This document shows positions 3,161 to 28,937 of a stretch of DNA of 38,579 bases, one piece after another (the stretch's first letter is position 1; each line of letters opens with the position of its first letter). Under the pieces are notes generated by a model that saw nothing but the letters and a program-made list of their open reading frames with translations, was not told the DNA's origin and searched no databases. The DNA is from an uncultured Lachnospiraceae bacterium. GTDB taxonomy: Bacteria; Bacillota; Clostridia; Lachnospirales; Lachnospiraceae. Location: NCBI GenBank assembly GCA_946536155.1, contig CAMNEB010000006.1:1-38579 (forward strand), given 5' to 3'. Made by a program: the position numbers and the translations under genes.

Positions 3161-3934
3161 TCAGGTGGCCGTAAGGAAATTCATATAAGGTCCCATCTTT
3201 TCCTTCATCTTGCCCAGAGCTCTTGTATGGAGCTGGGAGACTCTGGATTCCGAAACCTCAAGAACACTTGCGATCTCCTTGAGAGTCATTTCTTCGTAGT
3301 AGTAGAAAGTGATTATCTGACGTTCTTTTTCGGTAAGGGCTTGAAGTGCTTCCGAAAGTTTCTCGGTAAGTTCCTTCTTGTCGATATTTTCCTCGGGACT
3401 TAAGAAATGAGTCGTGGTGCGTGATGAAGGCGATGAAGCGACATCAGCTCCGGTCTCCATGAACTCATCCAGACTGACAAGGCCGGTGATCTTCATCTGG
3501 GACTGCCATTCGGAATATTCGTCATCCGTGATCCCAAGTGCCTGCGCTATCTCTTCGTCGGTAGCAACATGACCCTTTGTCATCTCTATCTCATGCATGA
3601 CCGCGTCAATCTTCTTCTGTCTCTGCCTGATGGTCCTGGGGATCCAGTCCATCTTGCGGATCTGGTCCAGTATGGAGCCCCTGATACGAAGGGATGCATA
3701 TGTCTCGAACTTTACATCCTTCATATTGTCGAATTTATCGATGGCGTCTATGAGACCGAAGATCCCGTAACTGCAGAGATCCTCAAATTCGACGTTGTAT
3801 CCGAGGTACATCGACAGCCTGCCGGCAACTACCTTTACAAGAGGGGCGAACTCTATTATAAGTTTCTCCCGGATGTCGGCGCTGCGGTTTTTCGCATATT
3901 CATCTAATAATTTTTTTCTTGAAGCTTCATCCAT
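3161..3934 (-). CDS. fliA: Flagellar RNA polymerase sigma factor (sigma-28/sigma-D)
   Basis: This is a 257-residue FliA/WhiG-family sigma factor. Region 2 (about residues 45-115) has the core-binding and -10 recognition pattern, including EDLCSYGIFGLIDAIDKF and FETYASLRIRGSILDQIR, the latter a hallmark of flagellar sigma factors. Region 3 lies near 130-165. Region 4 (about 205-245) has the -35-binding helix-turn-helix in TLKEIASVLEVSESRVSQLH. It directs RNA polymerase to late flagellar and chemotaxis promoters and is normally held by FlgM, which is not in this window. It lies near the operon end, as sigD does in B. subtilis. A matching promoter is visible in front of fliK (27491-27517), suggesting feedback on its own cluster. 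The ATG at 3934 has GGTGATC upstream. Confidence 0.96.
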   Translation of the reverse strand: MDEASRKKLLDEYAKNRSADIREKLIIEFAPLVKVVAGRLSMYLGYNVEFEDLCSYGIFGLIDAIDKFDNMKDVKFETYASLRIRGSILDQIRKMDWIPRTIRQRQKKIDAVMHEIEMTKGHVATDEEIAQALGITDDEYSEWQSQMKITGLVSLDEFMETGADVASSPSSRTTTHFLSPEENIDKKELTEKLSEALQALTEKERQIITFYYYEEMTLKEIASVLEVSESRVSQLHTRALGKMKEKMGPYMNFLTAT

Positions 3935-22946: not shown

Positions 22947-24656
22947 TCATCTCTTGAGATTCGTGAGTTCCTCAAGGAGTGTATCTGATACGGTGATGAT
23001 ACGGGAGTTAGCCTGGAATCCGCGCTGTGTGGTGATCATCTCGGTAAACTCAGCCGAAAGGTCAACGTTACTCATCTCGAGAACACCGGTGGACATATAT
23101 CCGCCCGATGCGGTGACATCCACTCCGATACCGTCGAAGGATCCGGAGTTCATGGTAGCCTCATAGAGGTTGTCTCCGTGCTTCTCAAGACCTGAGGCAT
23201 TGGGGAAGCTTGCCGTAGCGATCTGTCCGAGGAGCTTGGTCATTCCGTTATCATAGCTTGCATAGATGCATCCGTCTCTCTGGATGGATACTCCGATCAT
23301 ATCGCCGAGCCTGCGGCCGGTACCGAGGCCGTCCTTGTCTCCGTAGGTTGCGGTAACTGTCGAAGTTCCGTTATTGTTGAACATCGAGATGCCGGACCAG
23401 TTAAGAGCTATATCCTCAAAGTTCGAAGTCTTCTTCTCTTCATCGGAGATGAGCTTTGATGTGCCGAGAACCGTATCTCCCTTGACCGATCCGTCAATGG
23501 ATTCAAAAAGACCGGTGTCGGTATTGAACTTGAGCACGGAGCCGGTGAAGAATCTTCCGGCAGCGGTAAAATTGTTTGTAGTGGTCGCAGCATCATTATC
23601 GGGATCAAAGATGCTCGGGCTCGATCCGTTCTTTGCATTATTGAGCAGATTGGAAACCTTAACCTTATTTTCACCGTCCATAACATACAGGTTCAGGAAT
23701 GAATCGGTGGATCCGTCAAAACCGTAAGCTTTTGCTATCGCATCAAGTGCCGCCTGATCATCTGCGGTCGTGGGAGGTATGTTGATAGCGTTAAGATCGG
23801 CCACAACAGTTGTTCCGTCTGCATTTGTCAGTGTCTTTGCGGTGGTATCCCACGCATAGGCATTGGAATTGAATACTACGGATTCCTGATCTTGCACGGA
23901 AGTCTGGCTTCCGAACAGATCCTGAGCTTCCGAGAGATCGAGCTCTTTTCCTTTGCTGTCCATGATCTTGTTGAGTTCAACCGAGAACTCGCCCTCGACA
24001 TCCGTAGACTTTATCGCAAATCTTGCGGTGTACTCATATCCGAGCGAATCGTAGAAATTCAGGTTTACATATTTTCCGGACTCGCTGTTGACATCTGTGT
24101 CATTCTTATCAAGGATACCCTCAACAAGGCCCTTTGTGGTAGCTTCGGGGGGATAGGTGAGATTGTCGGAGCTCATTATCCTGAGAGACTGCACGGAATC
24201 CTTCTTGATGGAGAGGGTCTCGGGATCTACGCCCCATCCCTTTACGTTGTATCCGGTAGAGGTCATGCAGAGATTTCCGACACCGTCAACATAGAAGGAG
24301 CCGTCTCTTGTAAAGTAATTGGAAAGTCCGTCGGAAACGACGAAGAAATTATCACCGGTGATCATTATGTCAAAAGGATTTCCGGTGGACTGGGCAGAAC
24401 CCTGGGAGGTTATATTTACGTTGATCGCACCGGACTTAACGCCGAGACCGATCTGACGTGCATTTACGCCGCCGACACCGGTGGACTGGTTTGCGCCGGA
24501 TGCAGACTGGGTTGTCTGGCTCATCAGGTCCGCGAAAGTGACGGAACTTGATTTGTACGCGGTGGTATTGACGTTAGCGATGTTGTTACCGATAACGTCC
24601 ATCTTGGTCTGGTGTGTCTTAAGACCGGCAACACCCGAATAAAGAGATCTCATCAT
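22947..24656 (-). CDS. flgE: Flagellar hook protein FlgE
   Basis: FlgE polymerises into the hook. The protein has 569 residues with the conserved rod/hook N-terminus (SLYSGVAGLKTHQTKMDVIGNNIANVNT), a large variable middle and a conserved C-terminus (MITTQRGFQANSRIITVSDTLLEELTNL). The middle (about 100-470) holds extra Asp/Asn/Thr-rich domains, making it longer than the roughly 400 residues of enteric FlgE; such insertions are surface-exposed in hooks. The ATG at 24656 has GGAGG 10 bp upstream. A terminator follows the gene and a structured leader precedes it. Confidence 0.96.
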   Translation of the reverse strand: MMRSLYSGVAGLKTHQTKMDVIGNNIANVNTTAYKSSSVTFADLMSQTTQSASGANQSTGVGGVNARQIGLGVKSGAINVNITSQGSAQSTGNPFDIMITGDNFFVVSDGLSNYFTRDGSFYVDGVGNLCMTSTGYNVKGWGVDPETLSIKKDSVQSLRIMSSDNLTYPPEATTKGLVEGILDKNDTDVNSESGKYVNLNFYDSLGYEYTARFAIKSTDVEGEFSVELNKIMDSKGKELDLSEAQDLFGSQTSVQDQESVVFNSNAYAWDTTAKTLTNADGTTVVADLNAINIPPTTADDQAALDAIAKAYGFDGSTDSFLNLYVMDGENKVKVSNLLNNAKNGSSPSIFDPDNDAATTTNNFTAAGRFFTGSVLKFNTDTGLFESIDGSVKGDTVLGTSKLISDEEKKTSNFEDIALNWSGISMFNNNGTSTVTATYGDKDGLGTGRRLGDMIGVSIQRDGCIYASYDNGMTKLLGQIATASFPNASGLEKHGDNLYEATMNSGSFDGIGVDVTASGGYMSTGVLEMSNVDLSAEFTEMITTQRGFQANSRIITVSDTLLEELTNLKR

Positions 24657-24786: not shown

Positions 24787-25176
24787 TTAAGCTATAACCG
24801 CTCCGTTGATATTTGTAAAGACATTGGTATCACTTCCTGCTTCCAAAGCCGTGATCACGGTTCTGGACGGGACATTTACGATAAATGCCAGGTCATCGAC
24901 CATAACAAGCGAATCGTTTATCCCTTTGTCAGCCGCCATATCCGTACCGCTCGATAATCTTCCGAGCTGTTCGCTTGTGATTTCGAGCCCCCGGTCCTGC
25001 ATCCTTAAGTGTGCATGCTTGGAGAATTTAACTCCTCCGGCCTCTTTGCCTTTCTCCTCGAGGATACGGGCAAACGAAGGTTTGTCATCAGCTCCCGGAG
25101 CTGCACCGGTCTTGACGGCAGAGGTAAGTGATCTGGAAAGATTTGCTGCGTATAAAGCCTGTACGTTCATTTCCAT
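24787..25176 (-). CDS. TIGR02530-family flagellar operon protein
   Basis: This 129-residue protein belongs to the 'flagellar operon protein' family (TIGR02530), always found between flgD and flgE in Gram-positive clusters. Recognisable parts are KFSKHAHLRMQDRGLEIT (about 49-66) and a C-terminal half with VMVDDLAFIVNVPSRTVITAL, ending in FTNINGAVIA. Its molecular role is unknown; a helper of hook assembly is inferred from its constant neighbours. The ATG at 25176 has AGGAGG upstream. Confidence 0.9.
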   Translation of the reverse strand: MEMNVQALYAANLSRSLTSAVKTGAAPGADDKPSFARILEEKGKEAGGVKFSKHAHLRMQDRGLEITSEQLGRLSSGTDMAADKGINDSLVMVDDLAFIVNVPSRTVITALEAGSDTNVFTNINGAVIA

Positions 25177-25214
25177 AACTCTTCCTCCTTCAATTACTTA
25201 TATCGGCAGGAAGA

Positions 25215-26009
25215 TCAGTTTTCTTCAGTGGCAGATGTATTTTCTCCGCCCTCTTCAGCGGAATCCTCTTCCGCTGCTTCTTTTCCGGCAACTGCAGAGA
25301 CGATGGGCTCTCCGGCTTCATCATTTCCGGACGTTTTTTCCGCCTCTTTTGCCGCAGCATTTGCAGCAGCCACAAGAAGTTCGTTGAGCTTCTCGACATA
25401 TTTGTTCATATCCGAAACATCGTCATCATCGAGGAATCCCTTCTGATAATCGGACAGGGAATTGTAGAGATTCAGAAGTCCGGTGATCGTATTGCCGTGA
25501 TCCTTGATATTTACGGAATCGATCGAAGGAAGATCCTTTATCTCTTTTGCAAAATCCTTTGCGATGCTCTCCGCATTTGAATATTCGCTGCTGATGGCAG
25601 TGACCATATCCTTTGCGGCGTAGAGATTTCCGTCTATTGAAAAATATGCCTTGCCATCCTCGAATGTGACAAAATCCACGAATCCGCGGACTTCCGAGGT
25701 CTTGCCGCCGGAATCGGTACTCTCTATGATGACCTCCTTGCCGACAAAGGAACTGTATCTTGAAAGTTCCATCGTGGTGGACATGTTGTTGAGAGCTTCT
25801 ACCTGTGAGAACTGGGCATACTGAGAGATATACTCGGTATTTGAAGTGGGTTCAAGCGGATCCTGGTATTTCATCTGAGCGACGAGCAGCTGCAGGAACG
25901 CATCCTTATCCATGCCGGAATTAGACTGCGTATTTTCCGAAGAAAGCGAATTCTGGGAAGCTGATGTCACTATCTCACCGTTTTTGACGGTTGCTGAAAC
26001 AGACGCCAT
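25215..26009 (-). CDS. flgD: Hook-capping protein FlgD with long acidic tail
   Basis: FlgD caps the growing hook so that FlgE can add. I start it at 26009 (264 residues), where AAAGGAG lies 5-6 bp upstream; an upstream in-frame codon at 26054 would add 15 unlike residues. The N-terminal half is classic FlgD: MDKDAFLQLLVAQMKYQDP and NTEYISQYAQFSQVEALNNM, then a beta-rich segment to about residue 130. The C-terminal half is unusual: a predicted helical stretch (about 130-205) and a Glu/Ala/Gly-rich acidic tail. The usual Ig-like/tudor cap domains are not evident. Confidence 0.92.
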   Translation of the reverse strand: MASVSATVKNGEIVTSASQNSLSSENTQSNSGMDKDAFLQLLVAQMKYQDPLEPTSNTEYISQYAQFSQVEALNNMSTTMELSRYSSFVGKEVIIESTDSGGKTSEVRGFVDFVTFEDGKAYFSIDGNLYAAKDMVTAISSEYSNAESIAKDFAKEIKDLPSIDSVNIKDHGNTITGLLNLYNSLSDYQKGFLDDDDVSDMNKYVEKLNELLVAAANAAAKEAEKTSGNDEAGEPIVSAVAGKEAAEEDSAEEGGENTSATEEN

Positions 26010-26024
26010 ATATACTCCTTTCTG

Positions 26025-26043
26025 ATGCCGGCTCATCCGGCAT
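26025..26043. other. GCCGG-N5-CCGGC stem-loop before flgD
   Basis: A perfect 7-bp stem (atgccgg, loop ctcat, ccggcat) lies in the 54-bp fliK-flgD gap, ending just before the flgD ribosome site. No T tract follows on the minus strand. It shares the GCCGG-N5-CCGGC core with the hairpin at 30378-30398. It may affect mRNA stability or flgD translation. Confidence 0.5.
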
Positions 26044-26063
26044 ATCAGTTTCAAAAGCCCCGG

Positions 26064-27428
26064 TCAGGCCATGTAGTCAACCTTGTTTCCGTTTGCGGCC
26101 ATCATCTCCGCCGCAATACGCTCATCCTCTTCCATATCCGAGGTATCGAGTTCATCTATTCCTTCAAGATCGATCCTTCTGCTCCTTCTCGAGCTGCCGG
26201 GATTTCTCTCTTCTCCGGCTCCGGAACCCGAATCCAGATTACCTTCGAAGCTGTGTGAAGCAACCGTCACCTCAACCGCATCAACTCTTATGCCCTGGGC
26301 TTCGAGCTGCTCGTTAAGTCTTACCATCTGGCTCTCAACAGCCGCTCTGACCGCTTCGTTTTCGGTAACAAAGCTTGCGGTTATGACACCGGAATTGTTG
26401 GTGACGTGGATCTGAAGAGTTCCGAGTGATGCGGGATGCAGCTGCATCTCGACATCCGAAAGATCACCGTCCGTAAAAACCTTCATCTGATCGAGTATCT
26501 GATCGGCTATCTCTCTGGGATCCGGAGTGTAGAAGGTCTGAGGCGCTTCTGCAGCGATTTCCTGAGTACCGTTAAATGTTCCGGGAGCAAAACTATTTGC
26601 ATCAAAAGCATTTTCGGTACCATGTTCTCCGTTATCGGAGCCCTTTTGCTTTGCAGATTCCTGTGCGGAGGAAAGAACTACGCTCTCTCCGCTCCTTGTT
26701 CCTTCGGCATTTTCGGAAACCTTTTCAAGTTCTCCTTCGGAATTTCTCACAAATCTCGTAACGGATTCTTCCGAAGCCTTTCCATTGCCTGCAGACTCTT
26801 CAAGGAGAGCCTTCAGTTCAGACATGCTAAGACCGCCATCTTCGCTTTCTGCCGACAGGATATCCGACAGTGCCTCCATTCCGTCTCTGAAGATCCCGTA
26901 ATTCTCTTCATTCGTAAGAAGAGTCACACCGGATTCTTCACCGAGAACGGACATAAGGAACGCACTTAAGGTATCTCTGTCCAGAAGACCCATGGCGTCA
27001 AGTCCGGAAGCTTCGAGCATATCCTCAAGCTCTCCGGGACTTATGTTCAGTATATCCGCAAGTCTGTTTTCCAGTTCCATGGCTGCGGCGGAAAGTGTTT
27101 CCTGTGCGGATACTATTTCCTCATCCGTGAGCATCTTGCCTTTATCGGAAATCTTTTCGTTTCTTTCCGAGGCTGTTTCGGAGCTTTCCCTGCTCCTCAC
27201 ATCTGTCTTAGTGCCATCGGATCTTTTATAAGCGATATCACCGGTTTCAGGCTTCCGGTCAGCGCCGGTGTTCTCCGGGGGATTCGTGCCCGCGGAAATG
27301 CCCTTTGCCTGATCGTTCCATATGCTCCTGAAGTCGCTTCCCTGATCGGTATTTACTCTGGAAGATGCGGCAGACGGAATGATCTGTTCGCTCAGACCCA
27401 TGGCATCAGTGATAGGTGTGATGCCCAT
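26064..27428 (-). CDS. fliK: Hook-length control protein FliK
   Basis: FliK measures the hook and triggers FlhB to change export specificity. The 454-residue protein has a long Ser/Glu/Gly-rich disordered region with helical patches (about 1-300). The conserved C-terminal domain (about 320-405) includes VEMQLHPASLGTLQIHV and VRAAVESQMVRLNEQLEAQGI. An Arg/Ser-rich and acidic tail follows. The N-terminal part is variable in all FliK proteins, so the call rests on the C-terminal domain and the place before flgD. AAAGGA precedes the ATG at 27428, and a sigma-D promoter lies about 65 bp upstream. Confidence 0.93.
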   Translation of the reverse strand: MGITPITDAMGLSEQIIPSAASSRVNTDQGSDFRSIWNDQAKGISAGTNPPENTGADRKPETGDIAYKRSDGTKTDVRSRESSETASERNEKISDKGKMLTDEEIVSAQETLSAAAMELENRLADILNISPGELEDMLEASGLDAMGLLDRDTLSAFLMSVLGEESGVTLLTNEENYGIFRDGMEALSDILSAESEDGGLSMSELKALLEESAGNGKASEESVTRFVRNSEGELEKVSENAEGTRSGESVVLSSAQESAKQKGSDNGEHGTENAFDANSFAPGTFNGTQEIAAEAPQTFYTPDPREIADQILDQMKVFTDGDLSDVEMQLHPASLGTLQIHVTNNSGVITASFVTENEAVRAAVESQMVRLNEQLEAQGIRVDAVEVTVASHSFEGNLDSGSGAGEERNPGSSRRSRRIDLEGIDELDTSDMEEDERIAAEMMAANGNKVDYMA

Positions 27429-27490
27429 ATATTTATCGTCCTTTCTCCCTTGCGGGGGTAATTGTGGCAGGACAGACCCTGCTGGAAAAT

Positions 27491-27517
27491 ATATCGGCAG
27501 CCCGCCCGAAAATCTTA
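27491..27517 (-). promoter_or_regulatory. Sigma-28 (sigma-D) promoter for fliK and downstream hook genes
   Basis: On the minus strand, TAAG (27514-27517) is followed by a 15-bp spacer and a perfect GCCGATAT (27491-27498). The known sigma-D consensus in B. subtilis is TAAA-N15-GCCGATAT, so only one base differs. The extended -35 reads TAAGATTT, close to TAAAGTTT of enteric sigma-28. It lies in the fliK leader and points at fliK. Confidence 0.8.
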
Positions 27518-27556
27518 ACCTGCAAGTCAGGCTGTGTTTATGCGTATGTGATCAAG

Positions 27557-27599
27557 TGCCTCACACTGTAAAAGACCCGTAAAAAGATTATGTGAGGCA
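27557..27599. other. Nine-bp stem-loop after the MotE/YlxF-like gene
   Basis: The arms tgcctcaca (27557-27565) and tgtgaggca (27591-27599) enclose 25 bases. It starts 9 bp after the stop of the MotE/YlxF-like gene. No T tract follows on the minus strand, so it may be a partial terminator or an mRNA end-protecting structure rather than a full terminator. The sigma-D promoter lies just beyond it. Confidence 0.5.
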
Positions 27600-27607
27600 G
27601 CTAAGAT

Positions 27608-28489
27608 TTAATTCATGGGATCCAGTATCTTTGTGATCCTTGCGGCGACATCCTTGTCCATCTGGTTAAAAATGGCCGCTCTGTCTTCTGCATTCATGGC
27701 TCCCAGAATCCTCGCGGCAAGCTGGATTCCCTCGGTATCTGTCATCTTTTCAAAAAGAGCTGCAGCCTCCTTGGGCTTCATGTTCGAATATGCATTGACA
27801 TAATCCTGGATCTCTTTGGAGACCTGAAGTTCCTCAACGACCTGTTTGTAAAGGAATTCAGCCGTCGTAGGGTCCATGGATTCATAATATTTTGCGTATG
27901 CTTCGGCTCCGGGTCCCTTTTCGGAATAAATGACTTCTTCGTAGAACTCGTTACGGATCCTCTGGAAATCAACCTGCATGGTCTCAAACTCGGAAAGTCT
28001 GGTGACCTCGGCTTCAAGTGCCGCTATCCTCTCATCCTTGGTGGATGATGCTCCCTTTATCGCATCAAGTTCCGTCTCGAGGGCATAGATCCTGTTCACG
28101 GCATCCTTGAGATTGGTATAGCCGCCGTACATCTCGGTATCTAATGTCTCCGAGACTGCGGAGGAGGGAAGGATCTTGTTGATCACGGGAACATCTCGGA
28201 GCACGGGAGCAAGAACATTGCTTCCGAATCCGCCAACATCAAGCTTTATGACGACGACGATCACAGCAAGCCACAGGAGCACTATGAAGACAGTCGCTAT
28301 AAAGGTGACAAATCCTCCGCCTTCTTCATCCCCTTCAAGTTCCTCTTCCTGTTTAGCTATTTCCCTGGCACGCTGTTTTGCCTCTTTTTTCCTGTCTGCC
28401 TGTTCTTTCTTCAGTTTTTTCTTTTCTTCCTGAAGACGCTTTTTCTCTTCTTTGGCAGCCTTCTCTTCCGGTGTAAGTTCTTTAGCCAT
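27608..28489 (-). CDS. MotE/YlxF-like membrane protein with MgtE_N-type domain
   Basis: This 293-residue protein has a highly charged Lys/Glu-rich N-terminus (about 1-55, probably coiled coil) and one membrane helix (about 60-82). A second coiled coil follows (about 128-175), then a C-terminal helical repeat domain like MgtE_N/MotE (MKPKEAAALFEKMTD, ARILGAMNAEDRAAIF, ITKILDPMN). B. subtilis ylxF holds the same place between fliJ and fliK, and MotE of alpha-proteobacteria is a periplasmic motor/stator chaperone of similar build. The function here is inferred. The start overlaps the fliJ end by 8 bp. Confidence 0.8.
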   Translation of the reverse strand: MAKELTPEEKAAKEEKKRLQEEKKKLKKEQADRKKEAKQRAREIAKQEEELEGDEEGGGFVTFIATVFIVLLWLAVIVVVIKLDVGGFGSNVLAPVLRDVPVINKILPSSAVSETLDTEMYGGYTNLKDAVNRIYALETELDAIKGASSTKDERIAALEAEVTRLSEFETMQVDFQRIRNEFYEEVIYSEKGPGAEAYAKYYESMDPTTAEFLYKQVVEELQVSKEIQDYVNAYSNMKPKEAAALFEKMTDTEGIQLAARILGAMNAEDRAAIFNQMDKDVAARITKILDPMN

Positions 28490-28937
28490 TATCCGTTACC
28501 TTCTGTCCGTAAGTATATGTGGTAAGTTCATCGATGGATTTGCTCTCGGATCTGTTCTCCTCGCGCACAAATTCATCAAATTGCTTTTCTTTCAGTTTTT
28601 CGTGTGTCTTTCTTTCCTTTACAGCATCCTCGAGTTCGGATCTTGCTGCCTCAAGTGCCTCTTGAGCCTTTCTGACCCTGACCTTCTGCGCAGCGATCTG
28701 CTCGTTGCAGATGATCCGGGACATCTGTGAGTCCTCAATATCATGCATGTTCAGGTTGCCCTTTAAGACCTCCACAGCATGTCTTTCGATCTCATCAAGC
28801 TTTACATAAAGAGCATCAAGCTCCGCCTGCTTTTCATCAAGGTTTCTCTTGGCATCGCCGAATGCCTGTCTGGCCTGAGTCTCCATCTTCTCCTTGATGC
28901 TCAGGATATTCTGCATTTTATATCTGAATCTGGCCAT
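28482..28937 (-). CDS. fliJ: Flagellar export chaperone/stalk protein FliJ
   Basis: This 151-residue protein is almost wholly coiled coil (pattern such as KRNLDEKQAELDALYVKLDEIERH), beginning with FRYKMQNILSIKEKMETQ, the typical FliJ start. FliJ is the central stalk of the FliI ATPase ring and recycles export chaperones. Sequence alone is weakly diagnostic, but length, coiled coil and the place right after fliI make the call firm. The ATG at 28937 has GGAGG upstream. Confidence 0.93.
   Translation of the reverse strand: MARFRYKMQNILSIKEKMETQARQAFGDAKRNLDEKQAELDALYVKLDEIERHAVEVLKGNLNMHDIEDSQMSRIICNEQIAAQKVRVRKAQEALEAARSELEDAVKERKTHEKLKEKQFDEFVREENRSESKSIDELTTYTYGQKVTDNG

Follow-up and report, generated by a model that had tools for sequence, protein, structure and literature searches.

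A candidate sigma-D promoter ahead of fliK inside the early flagellar operon of an uncultured Lachnospiraceae bacterium

Does the sigma-D-like motif that lies ahead of the hook-length control gene fliK, within a long early flagellar operon of an uncultured Lachnospiraceae bacterium, act as a promoter, and which genes would such a promoter serve? We examined this question in the window, meaning the whole 38,579-nucleotide stretch of DNA that was analysed, which corresponds to contig 6 in a draft genome of 2.2 Mb (83% complete). The features on which the argument draws are given below; the gene at 27608..28489 encodes an MgtE_N domain, and ylxF/MotE-like is the name that we have assumed for it.

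27491..27517, minus strand: P_fliK, putative sigma-D promoter (motif, conservation, enrichment, matrix)
27517..27514, minus strand: -35 box of P_fliK, TAAG, one mismatch to TAAA
27498..27491, minus strand: -10 box of P_fliK, GCCGATAT, matching GCCGATAW
27467..27482, minus strand: predicted 5'-terminal hairpin of the P_fliK transcript, GCAGG-GTCTGT-CCTGC (folding prediction)
27608..28489, minus strand: ylxF/MotE-like gene, upstream of fliK (MgtE_N PF03448, 26.7 bits against a cut-off of 25.9)
26064..27428, minus strand: fliK, hook-length control (Flg_hook PF02120, E 1.4e-16)
25215..26018, minus strand: flgD, hook assembly (NF007197, E 5.6e-24, below the equivalog cut-off); its start is uncertain, the listed open reading frame beginning at 26054
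25200..25226, minus strand: second, weaker sigma-D-like site, GAAG-N15-GCCGATAT (20.5 bits with the genus matrix)
24787..25176, minus strand: TIGR02530 flagellar gene (97.4 bits against a cut-off of 83.2)
22947..24656, minus strand: flgE, hook protein (NF004241, E 3.6e-88, below the equivalog cut-off)
3161..3934, minus strand: fliA, sigma-D (TIGR02479, 260.5 bits against a cut-off of 189.6)

On the minus strand, positions 27517 to 27491 read TAAG-ATTTTCGGGCGGGCT-GCCGATAT, within the 179-nt gap between the ylxF/MotE-like gene and fliK. The SigD consensus of Bacillus subtilis is TAAA-N13-16-GCCGATAW (PMC3865298; this and the other papers cited are represented here by excerpts). Against it P_fliK carries a single mismatch, at the fourth base of the -35 box, while the 15 nt between TAAG and GCCGATAT fall within the usual spacing of about 13-16 nt and the -10 box agrees with GCCGATAW. 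The first-pass annotation had described a motif of this spacing and with this one mismatch at 27491..27517, facing fliK; the minus-strand sequence agrees exactly, and the ATG of fliK (26064..27428, minus strand) lies 62 nt downstream. The departure from TAAA weighs against the promoter reading; both TAAG and TAAA are seen at the same place within the genus, and TAAG also occurs upstream of a DUF6033 gene in a relative (L129). A matrix trained on 26 same-genus fliK leaders, with the window excluded, ranked P_fliK best in the window on both strands at 27.4 bits, whereas 6 Mb of simulated sequence, scanned on one strand, did not exceed 20.2 bits. Transcription would be expected to start near 27484.

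Two structures close to these boxes were also considered. A palindrome, GCCTCACA...TGTGAGGC, lies at 27558-27598 between the ylxF-like gene and P_fliK; it was rejected as a repeat or a terminator, being present as a single copy in the genome and having no T-run after it on the minus strand. An inverted repeat between the -35 and -10 boxes, as a general operator or hairpin, was rejected as well: although present at fliK in a few relatives (e.g. L171, L188), it did not exceed shuffles overall, reaching p <= 0.05 at 0/27 genus sites and 4/51 others.

Related fliK leaders were scanned for the same motif, as the first-pass annotation had proposed. Among 114 genomes searched for FlgD, 83 gave a match (the window's own included) and 31 did not, four of the latter belonging to the same genus among those listed; 60 of the 82 other matching genomes were examined, comprising 26 from the genus, 14 from the family and 20 from the order. 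All 26 same-genus genomes carry the motif in the fliK leader, 24 exactly (TAAR-N14-16-KCCGATAW) and two with one mismatch (L044, L064), the fliK start in L049 having been set by hand. The distance between the boxes is nearly fixed in all 26 (14-16 nt), and when the window is aligned with six close relatives, hardly any change appears in the boxes, the spacer being variable. Four of the 14 other genera sampled from the family have a version within one mismatch (L060, L072, L073, L080), with L078 not evaluable. The expected spread to other families of the order was not borne out: the fliI-flgD interval contained an exact site in 0/20 genomes from 13 such families, one of which (L236) has a one-mismatch version shortly past its MotE-like gene. 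In a genome where the fliK leader lacks the site (G041, L076, around 3931, with flgD on the plus strand), an exact sigma-D site was seen inside the ylxF/MotE-like gene, a position closer to the one that the name of the B. subtilis promoter PylxF3 would suggest.

We also assembled a further sample from the best 80 of 579 relatives, in records mostly titled Lachnospiraceae, a selection that favours close kin. The fliK leader was evaluable in 73 of these 80 loci; 10 loci were set apart as genus members, leaving 63 further leaders, of which 28 matched exactly (any first base of the -10 box, spacer 14-16), 23 had one mismatch, 10 had two and 2 had three. The motif is therefore within one mismatch in 51/63 further fliK leaders, compared with 2/65 flgD-TIGR02530 gaps of the same loci, the two kinds of stretch being unequal in length. 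With a spacer of exactly 15, the perfect motif occurs 24 times in the fliK leaders (10.6 kb), once elsewhere in the sense direction and never antisense (685 kb) across the 70 further loci, which remain after the 10 genus members are removed from the best 80 of 579, may include some members of the same genus and are in many cases interrelated, and so do not count as 70 separate occurrences. What is directly observed, then, is the motif together with its conservation and enrichment; by this comparison only part of the Lachnospiraceae carries the site, and it is not a family-wide rule. On the DNA evidence, we read P_fliK as a working sigma-D promoter, and the best explanation, which we hold to be very probable, is a genuine sigma-D (FliA, sigma-28) promoter situated in the early flgB-to-fliA operon upstream of fliK.

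A second, weaker sigma-D-like site, at 25226..25200, precedes the TIGR02530 gene; its -35 box overlaps the 3' end of flgD. The site before fliK had been called the only one of its kind in any gap of the window, a claim that this second site overturns; the accompanying proposal of a sigma-D promoter facing fliK is supported by the 26/26 relatives, by the sites at flgM and flagellin genes and by FliA (see below). Within 26 genus genomes, the window included, the second site is exact in 13, has one mismatch in five (among them the window), two in four and more in four, giving 18/26 within one mismatch; L022 has no TIGR02530 gene to score. In the further loci, by contrast with the fliK leaders, none of 65 flgD-TIGR02530 gaps contained an exact version, two contained one with a single mismatch, and the other 63 had at least two mismatches. 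A matrix built from late-gene sites (described below) gave the window's copy 9.1 bits with a spacer of 15 and 13.3 bits with a spacer of 16, and its -35 box is weak. On these comparisons the second site is a probable promoter in the genus and a doubtful one in the window's own genome. In eight loci of a second branch of the genus (L023, L024, L025, L027, L029, L031, L032 and L037) an inverted repeat, for instance GGGGTAAAG...TTTACCCC, spans the promoter-like site in the flgD-TIGR02530 gap; its stems vary from species to species and yet remain able to pair. It could form a hairpin in read-through RNA or act as an operator.

How far would transcription from P_fliK reach? Extra transcription had been proposed for fliK to flgE. 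That range is too narrow, because the genes continue in the same direction as far as fliA, all on the minus strand, with no gap above about 185 nt (flgE-flbD, a length that depends on the start chosen), and the effect need not end at flgE. The motor, export and chemotaxis genes of this interval were named from their translations. Gene order and strand place P_fliK within the early operon and direct it towards fliA, which sits near the downstream end of the run about 23.5 kb away. Weak terminator-like matches on the minus strand, in the flgE-flbD gap (22886-22873), at the end of flbD (22587-22565) and at the end of fliP (16379-16363), could limit read-through, and such matches are no commoner than in shuffles (18 against 16.6, and 17 against 17.5).

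Because the co-directional genes reach fliA, feedback on sigma-D is likely, by analogy with reports on the sigD promoters inside the fla/che operon of B. subtilis. A rival reading goes further and makes this feedback the main purpose of the promoter, as for those B. subtilis promoters, with extra hook protein as a side effect. The uninterrupted direction of the genes from fliK to fliA speaks for it, as does the finding that sigD expression in B. subtilis is partly governed by PylxF3 (PMC3865298). However, fliA is about 23.5 kb distant, with the weak terminator-like matches in between, and the genus has kept an exact site before fliK together with a second one before TIGR02530-flgE, a pattern that suggests a role for the hook genes in their own right. 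We regard feedback as the main purpose as possible, though not as the reading to be preferred over a promoter that also serves the hook genes.

A sigma-D promoter needs its sigma factor, and only one of the five FliA/WhiG-type matches in the draft genome exceeds the family cut-off; this match is FliA. Its anti-sigma factor FlgM is encoded in the same genome. Late genes carry the expected sites: TAAA-N16-TCCGATAA lies upstream of flgM in the window's genome (L232) and three relatives (4/4 genomes), and TAAA-N15-TCCGATAT upstream of one flagellin gene of the window's genome (L126); flagellin genes with the motif upstream were found in G000 and G011. At equal distance from the -10 box, the -35 regions of fliK and flgM in the same genome, TTAAG and TAAAG, differ by one change. 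Genome-wide, TAAR-N15-GCCGATAW has eight matches against one for a backwards control. Several of the eight fall inside reading frames, so that a lone match proves nothing and conservation must decide. The late-gene matrix was built from 10 genus sites, with no fliK site among them, that lie upstream of flgM, of flagellin genes and of further genes that are late or unnamed, and it placed P_fliK first in the window on both strands at 19.9 bits, the next different site scoring 14.1 on the plus strand; this test is not fully blind, because most training sites were found with a similar pattern.

The surroundings of the motif matches were inspected in G000, G011, G027 and, for part of the matches, G013, and several other sites came to light. 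TAAA-N15-GCCGATAT, the only such match with a perfect -35 box in the window's genome, lies at L006:1501-1527 (G000:C77:3101-3127), about 80 nt upstream of a tmRNA gene (1606-1978). Sigma-D-like sites in L007 and L008 (the window's genome), L088 (G027) and L117 (G011) fall within the 3' end of the open reading frame directly preceding flagellin genes, 173-197 nt upstream of the flagellin start, and may be promoters within coding sequence. A homologous gene in L122 (G011) and L129 (G027) has a TAAAG-type and a TTAAG-type site upstream, respectively; its G027 copy matches DUF6033, making it a candidate new late gene with two -35 forms at one gene. Finally, a TTAAG...GCCGATAT site at L131:1491-1542 (G027) lies just upstream of what we take, from its N-terminus, to be a type IV pilin-like gene, which suggests that a pilin may be under flagellar sigma control in this relative.

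Recognition of P_fliK by another sigma factor, for example sigma-A using GATATATT as a weak -10 box, would also explain a promoter here. There are four further sigma-type matches below the FliA cut-off, in a draft that is 83% complete. A sigma-70-type promoter over P_fliK was nevertheless rejected, as a consensus scan gave no such site at 27491-27517; the part that is kept, the CCGATA core, is the one shared with the flgM and flagellin sites, and FliA is the single FliA/WhiG-type match above the cut-off. We therefore consider another sigma factor very unlikely.

Downstream of P_fliK the leader RNA is predicted to be structured. The 45 nt from the expected start, compared with dinucleotide shuffles, gave median z scores of -1.23 for 27 genus leaders (window included) and -1.02 for 51 others, whereas controls (45 nt upstream of the -35 box, and a stretch inside fliK) had medians near 0; the group test overstates significance because the sequences are related. 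Individually, 6/27 leaders were significant at p 0.05, and the window's own was not (p 0.22). In close relatives the hairpin is mostly of the type GCAGGG...CTCTGC, beginning about 4 nt past the expected start. A 5'-terminal hairpin can slow the decay of a bacterial mRNA, and it is a reasonable guess that this one does so for the P_fliK transcript. The structure of the leaders past the -10 box as a group would also suit a conserved element of the fliK RNA or leader that is not a promoter. However, what has been kept is two short boxes at a near-fixed spacing around a variable spacer, with identical boxes upstream of flgM and flagellin genes, and Rfam has no match in 25000-28600 up to E 1; an RNA element is accordingly a shade more remote than another sigma factor. 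Least credible of all is a chance match without function, since, despite one match to TAAG-N14-16-GCCGATAW in the 38.6 kb window being rare but possible by chance (shuffle mean 0.01, a match in 1/100 shuffles) and despite the matches inside reading frames of the same genome, the motif lies within one mismatch in 26/26 genus and 51/63 further leaders against 2/65 flgD-TIGR02530 gaps, and on this comparison P_fliK is not a chance match.

With a genuine sigma-D promoter as the favoured reading, we infer the sigma factor used, the start point, the read-through and the timing as follows. Once a hook-basal body is finished, FlgM would leave the cell, and its export would allow FliA-RNA polymerase to start at about 27484, upstream of fliK. 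The transcript would consist of a short hairpin leader followed by fliK, flgD, TIGR02530 and flgE, helped by a weaker start at 25226..25200, with some read-through along the co-directional run to fliA. The likely net effect would be twofold: an increased supply of hook proteins for additional flagella, and positive feedback on FliA. Since many related bacteria of the gut and rumen have retained the site, the genes of the hook region, from fliK on, probably receive a second boost once the hook is complete, and the view that hook genes are partly late genes is plausible and fits P_fliK. More speculatively, and with considerable doubt, this rumen genus may possess a self-reinforcing two-stage hook module, in which paired sigma-D promoters (at fliK and at TIGR02530-flgE) re-supply ruler, cap and hook protein only after the first hook and a protective 5' hairpin stands on each late fliK transcript. 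If so, one finished hook would speed the next and amplify FliA, creating a self-reinforcing switch in flagellar number.

Internal SigD promoters have precedents. The B. subtilis fla-che unit has two, PylxF3 and PsigD, although the activity of PsigD is described as not clearly shown (PMC3865298); ylxF is the ninth gene of the operon (PMC2245950). Like P_fliK, PylxF3 lies inside a long early flagellar operon upstream of the sigma factor gene (sigD/fliA; PMC3865298), and the ylxF region is itself comparable, a ylxF/MotE-like gene directly preceding fliK here. Going by its name, PylxF3 should belong to ylxF, whereas P_fliK is located one gene further on, ahead of fliK; it follows the ylxF-like gene instead of preceding it, and we therefore claim a similar way of working and not the same promoter. 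The second site before TIGR02530-flgE is a further difference. The function of PylxF3 has been tested in B. subtilis, whereas that of P_fliK is predicted from sequence, and the comparison draws on gene order and promoter name.

In Clostridioides difficile, internal SigD sites are predicted in the early operon before motA and fliQ, genes other than fliK, a word that does not occur in the excerpted text (PMC3865298), and start mapping placed three SigD promoters at flagellar genes, again with no fliK in the main text as excerpted (PMC7438776). Closer to the window, flagellin genes of Roseburia, Eubacterium and Butyrivibrio, of the same family, have sigma-28 promoters with TAAA and MCGATAa boxes, and Roseburia and Eubacterium have a similar flgB-fliA locus with fliA at the end (PMC3720852); the promoter analysis there concerned flagellin genes, and the excerpted text does not contain the word fliK. 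The open-access literature searched yielded no account of a sigma-D promoter upstream of fliK in the Lachnospiraceae. While internal SigD promoters as such are already known, the one at fliK in part of the Lachnospiraceae thus appears to be new and is well supported by comparison.

In summary, P_fliK is a point at which feedback in the flagellar programme could be tested, in an abundant and largely uncultured family of the gut and rumen where a previous search for sigma-28 promoters centred, in its excerpted text, on flagellin genes (PMC3720852). Its conservation suggests that the division between early and late flagellar genes is blurred at fliK across a bacterial group, beyond the operon of B. 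subtilis.
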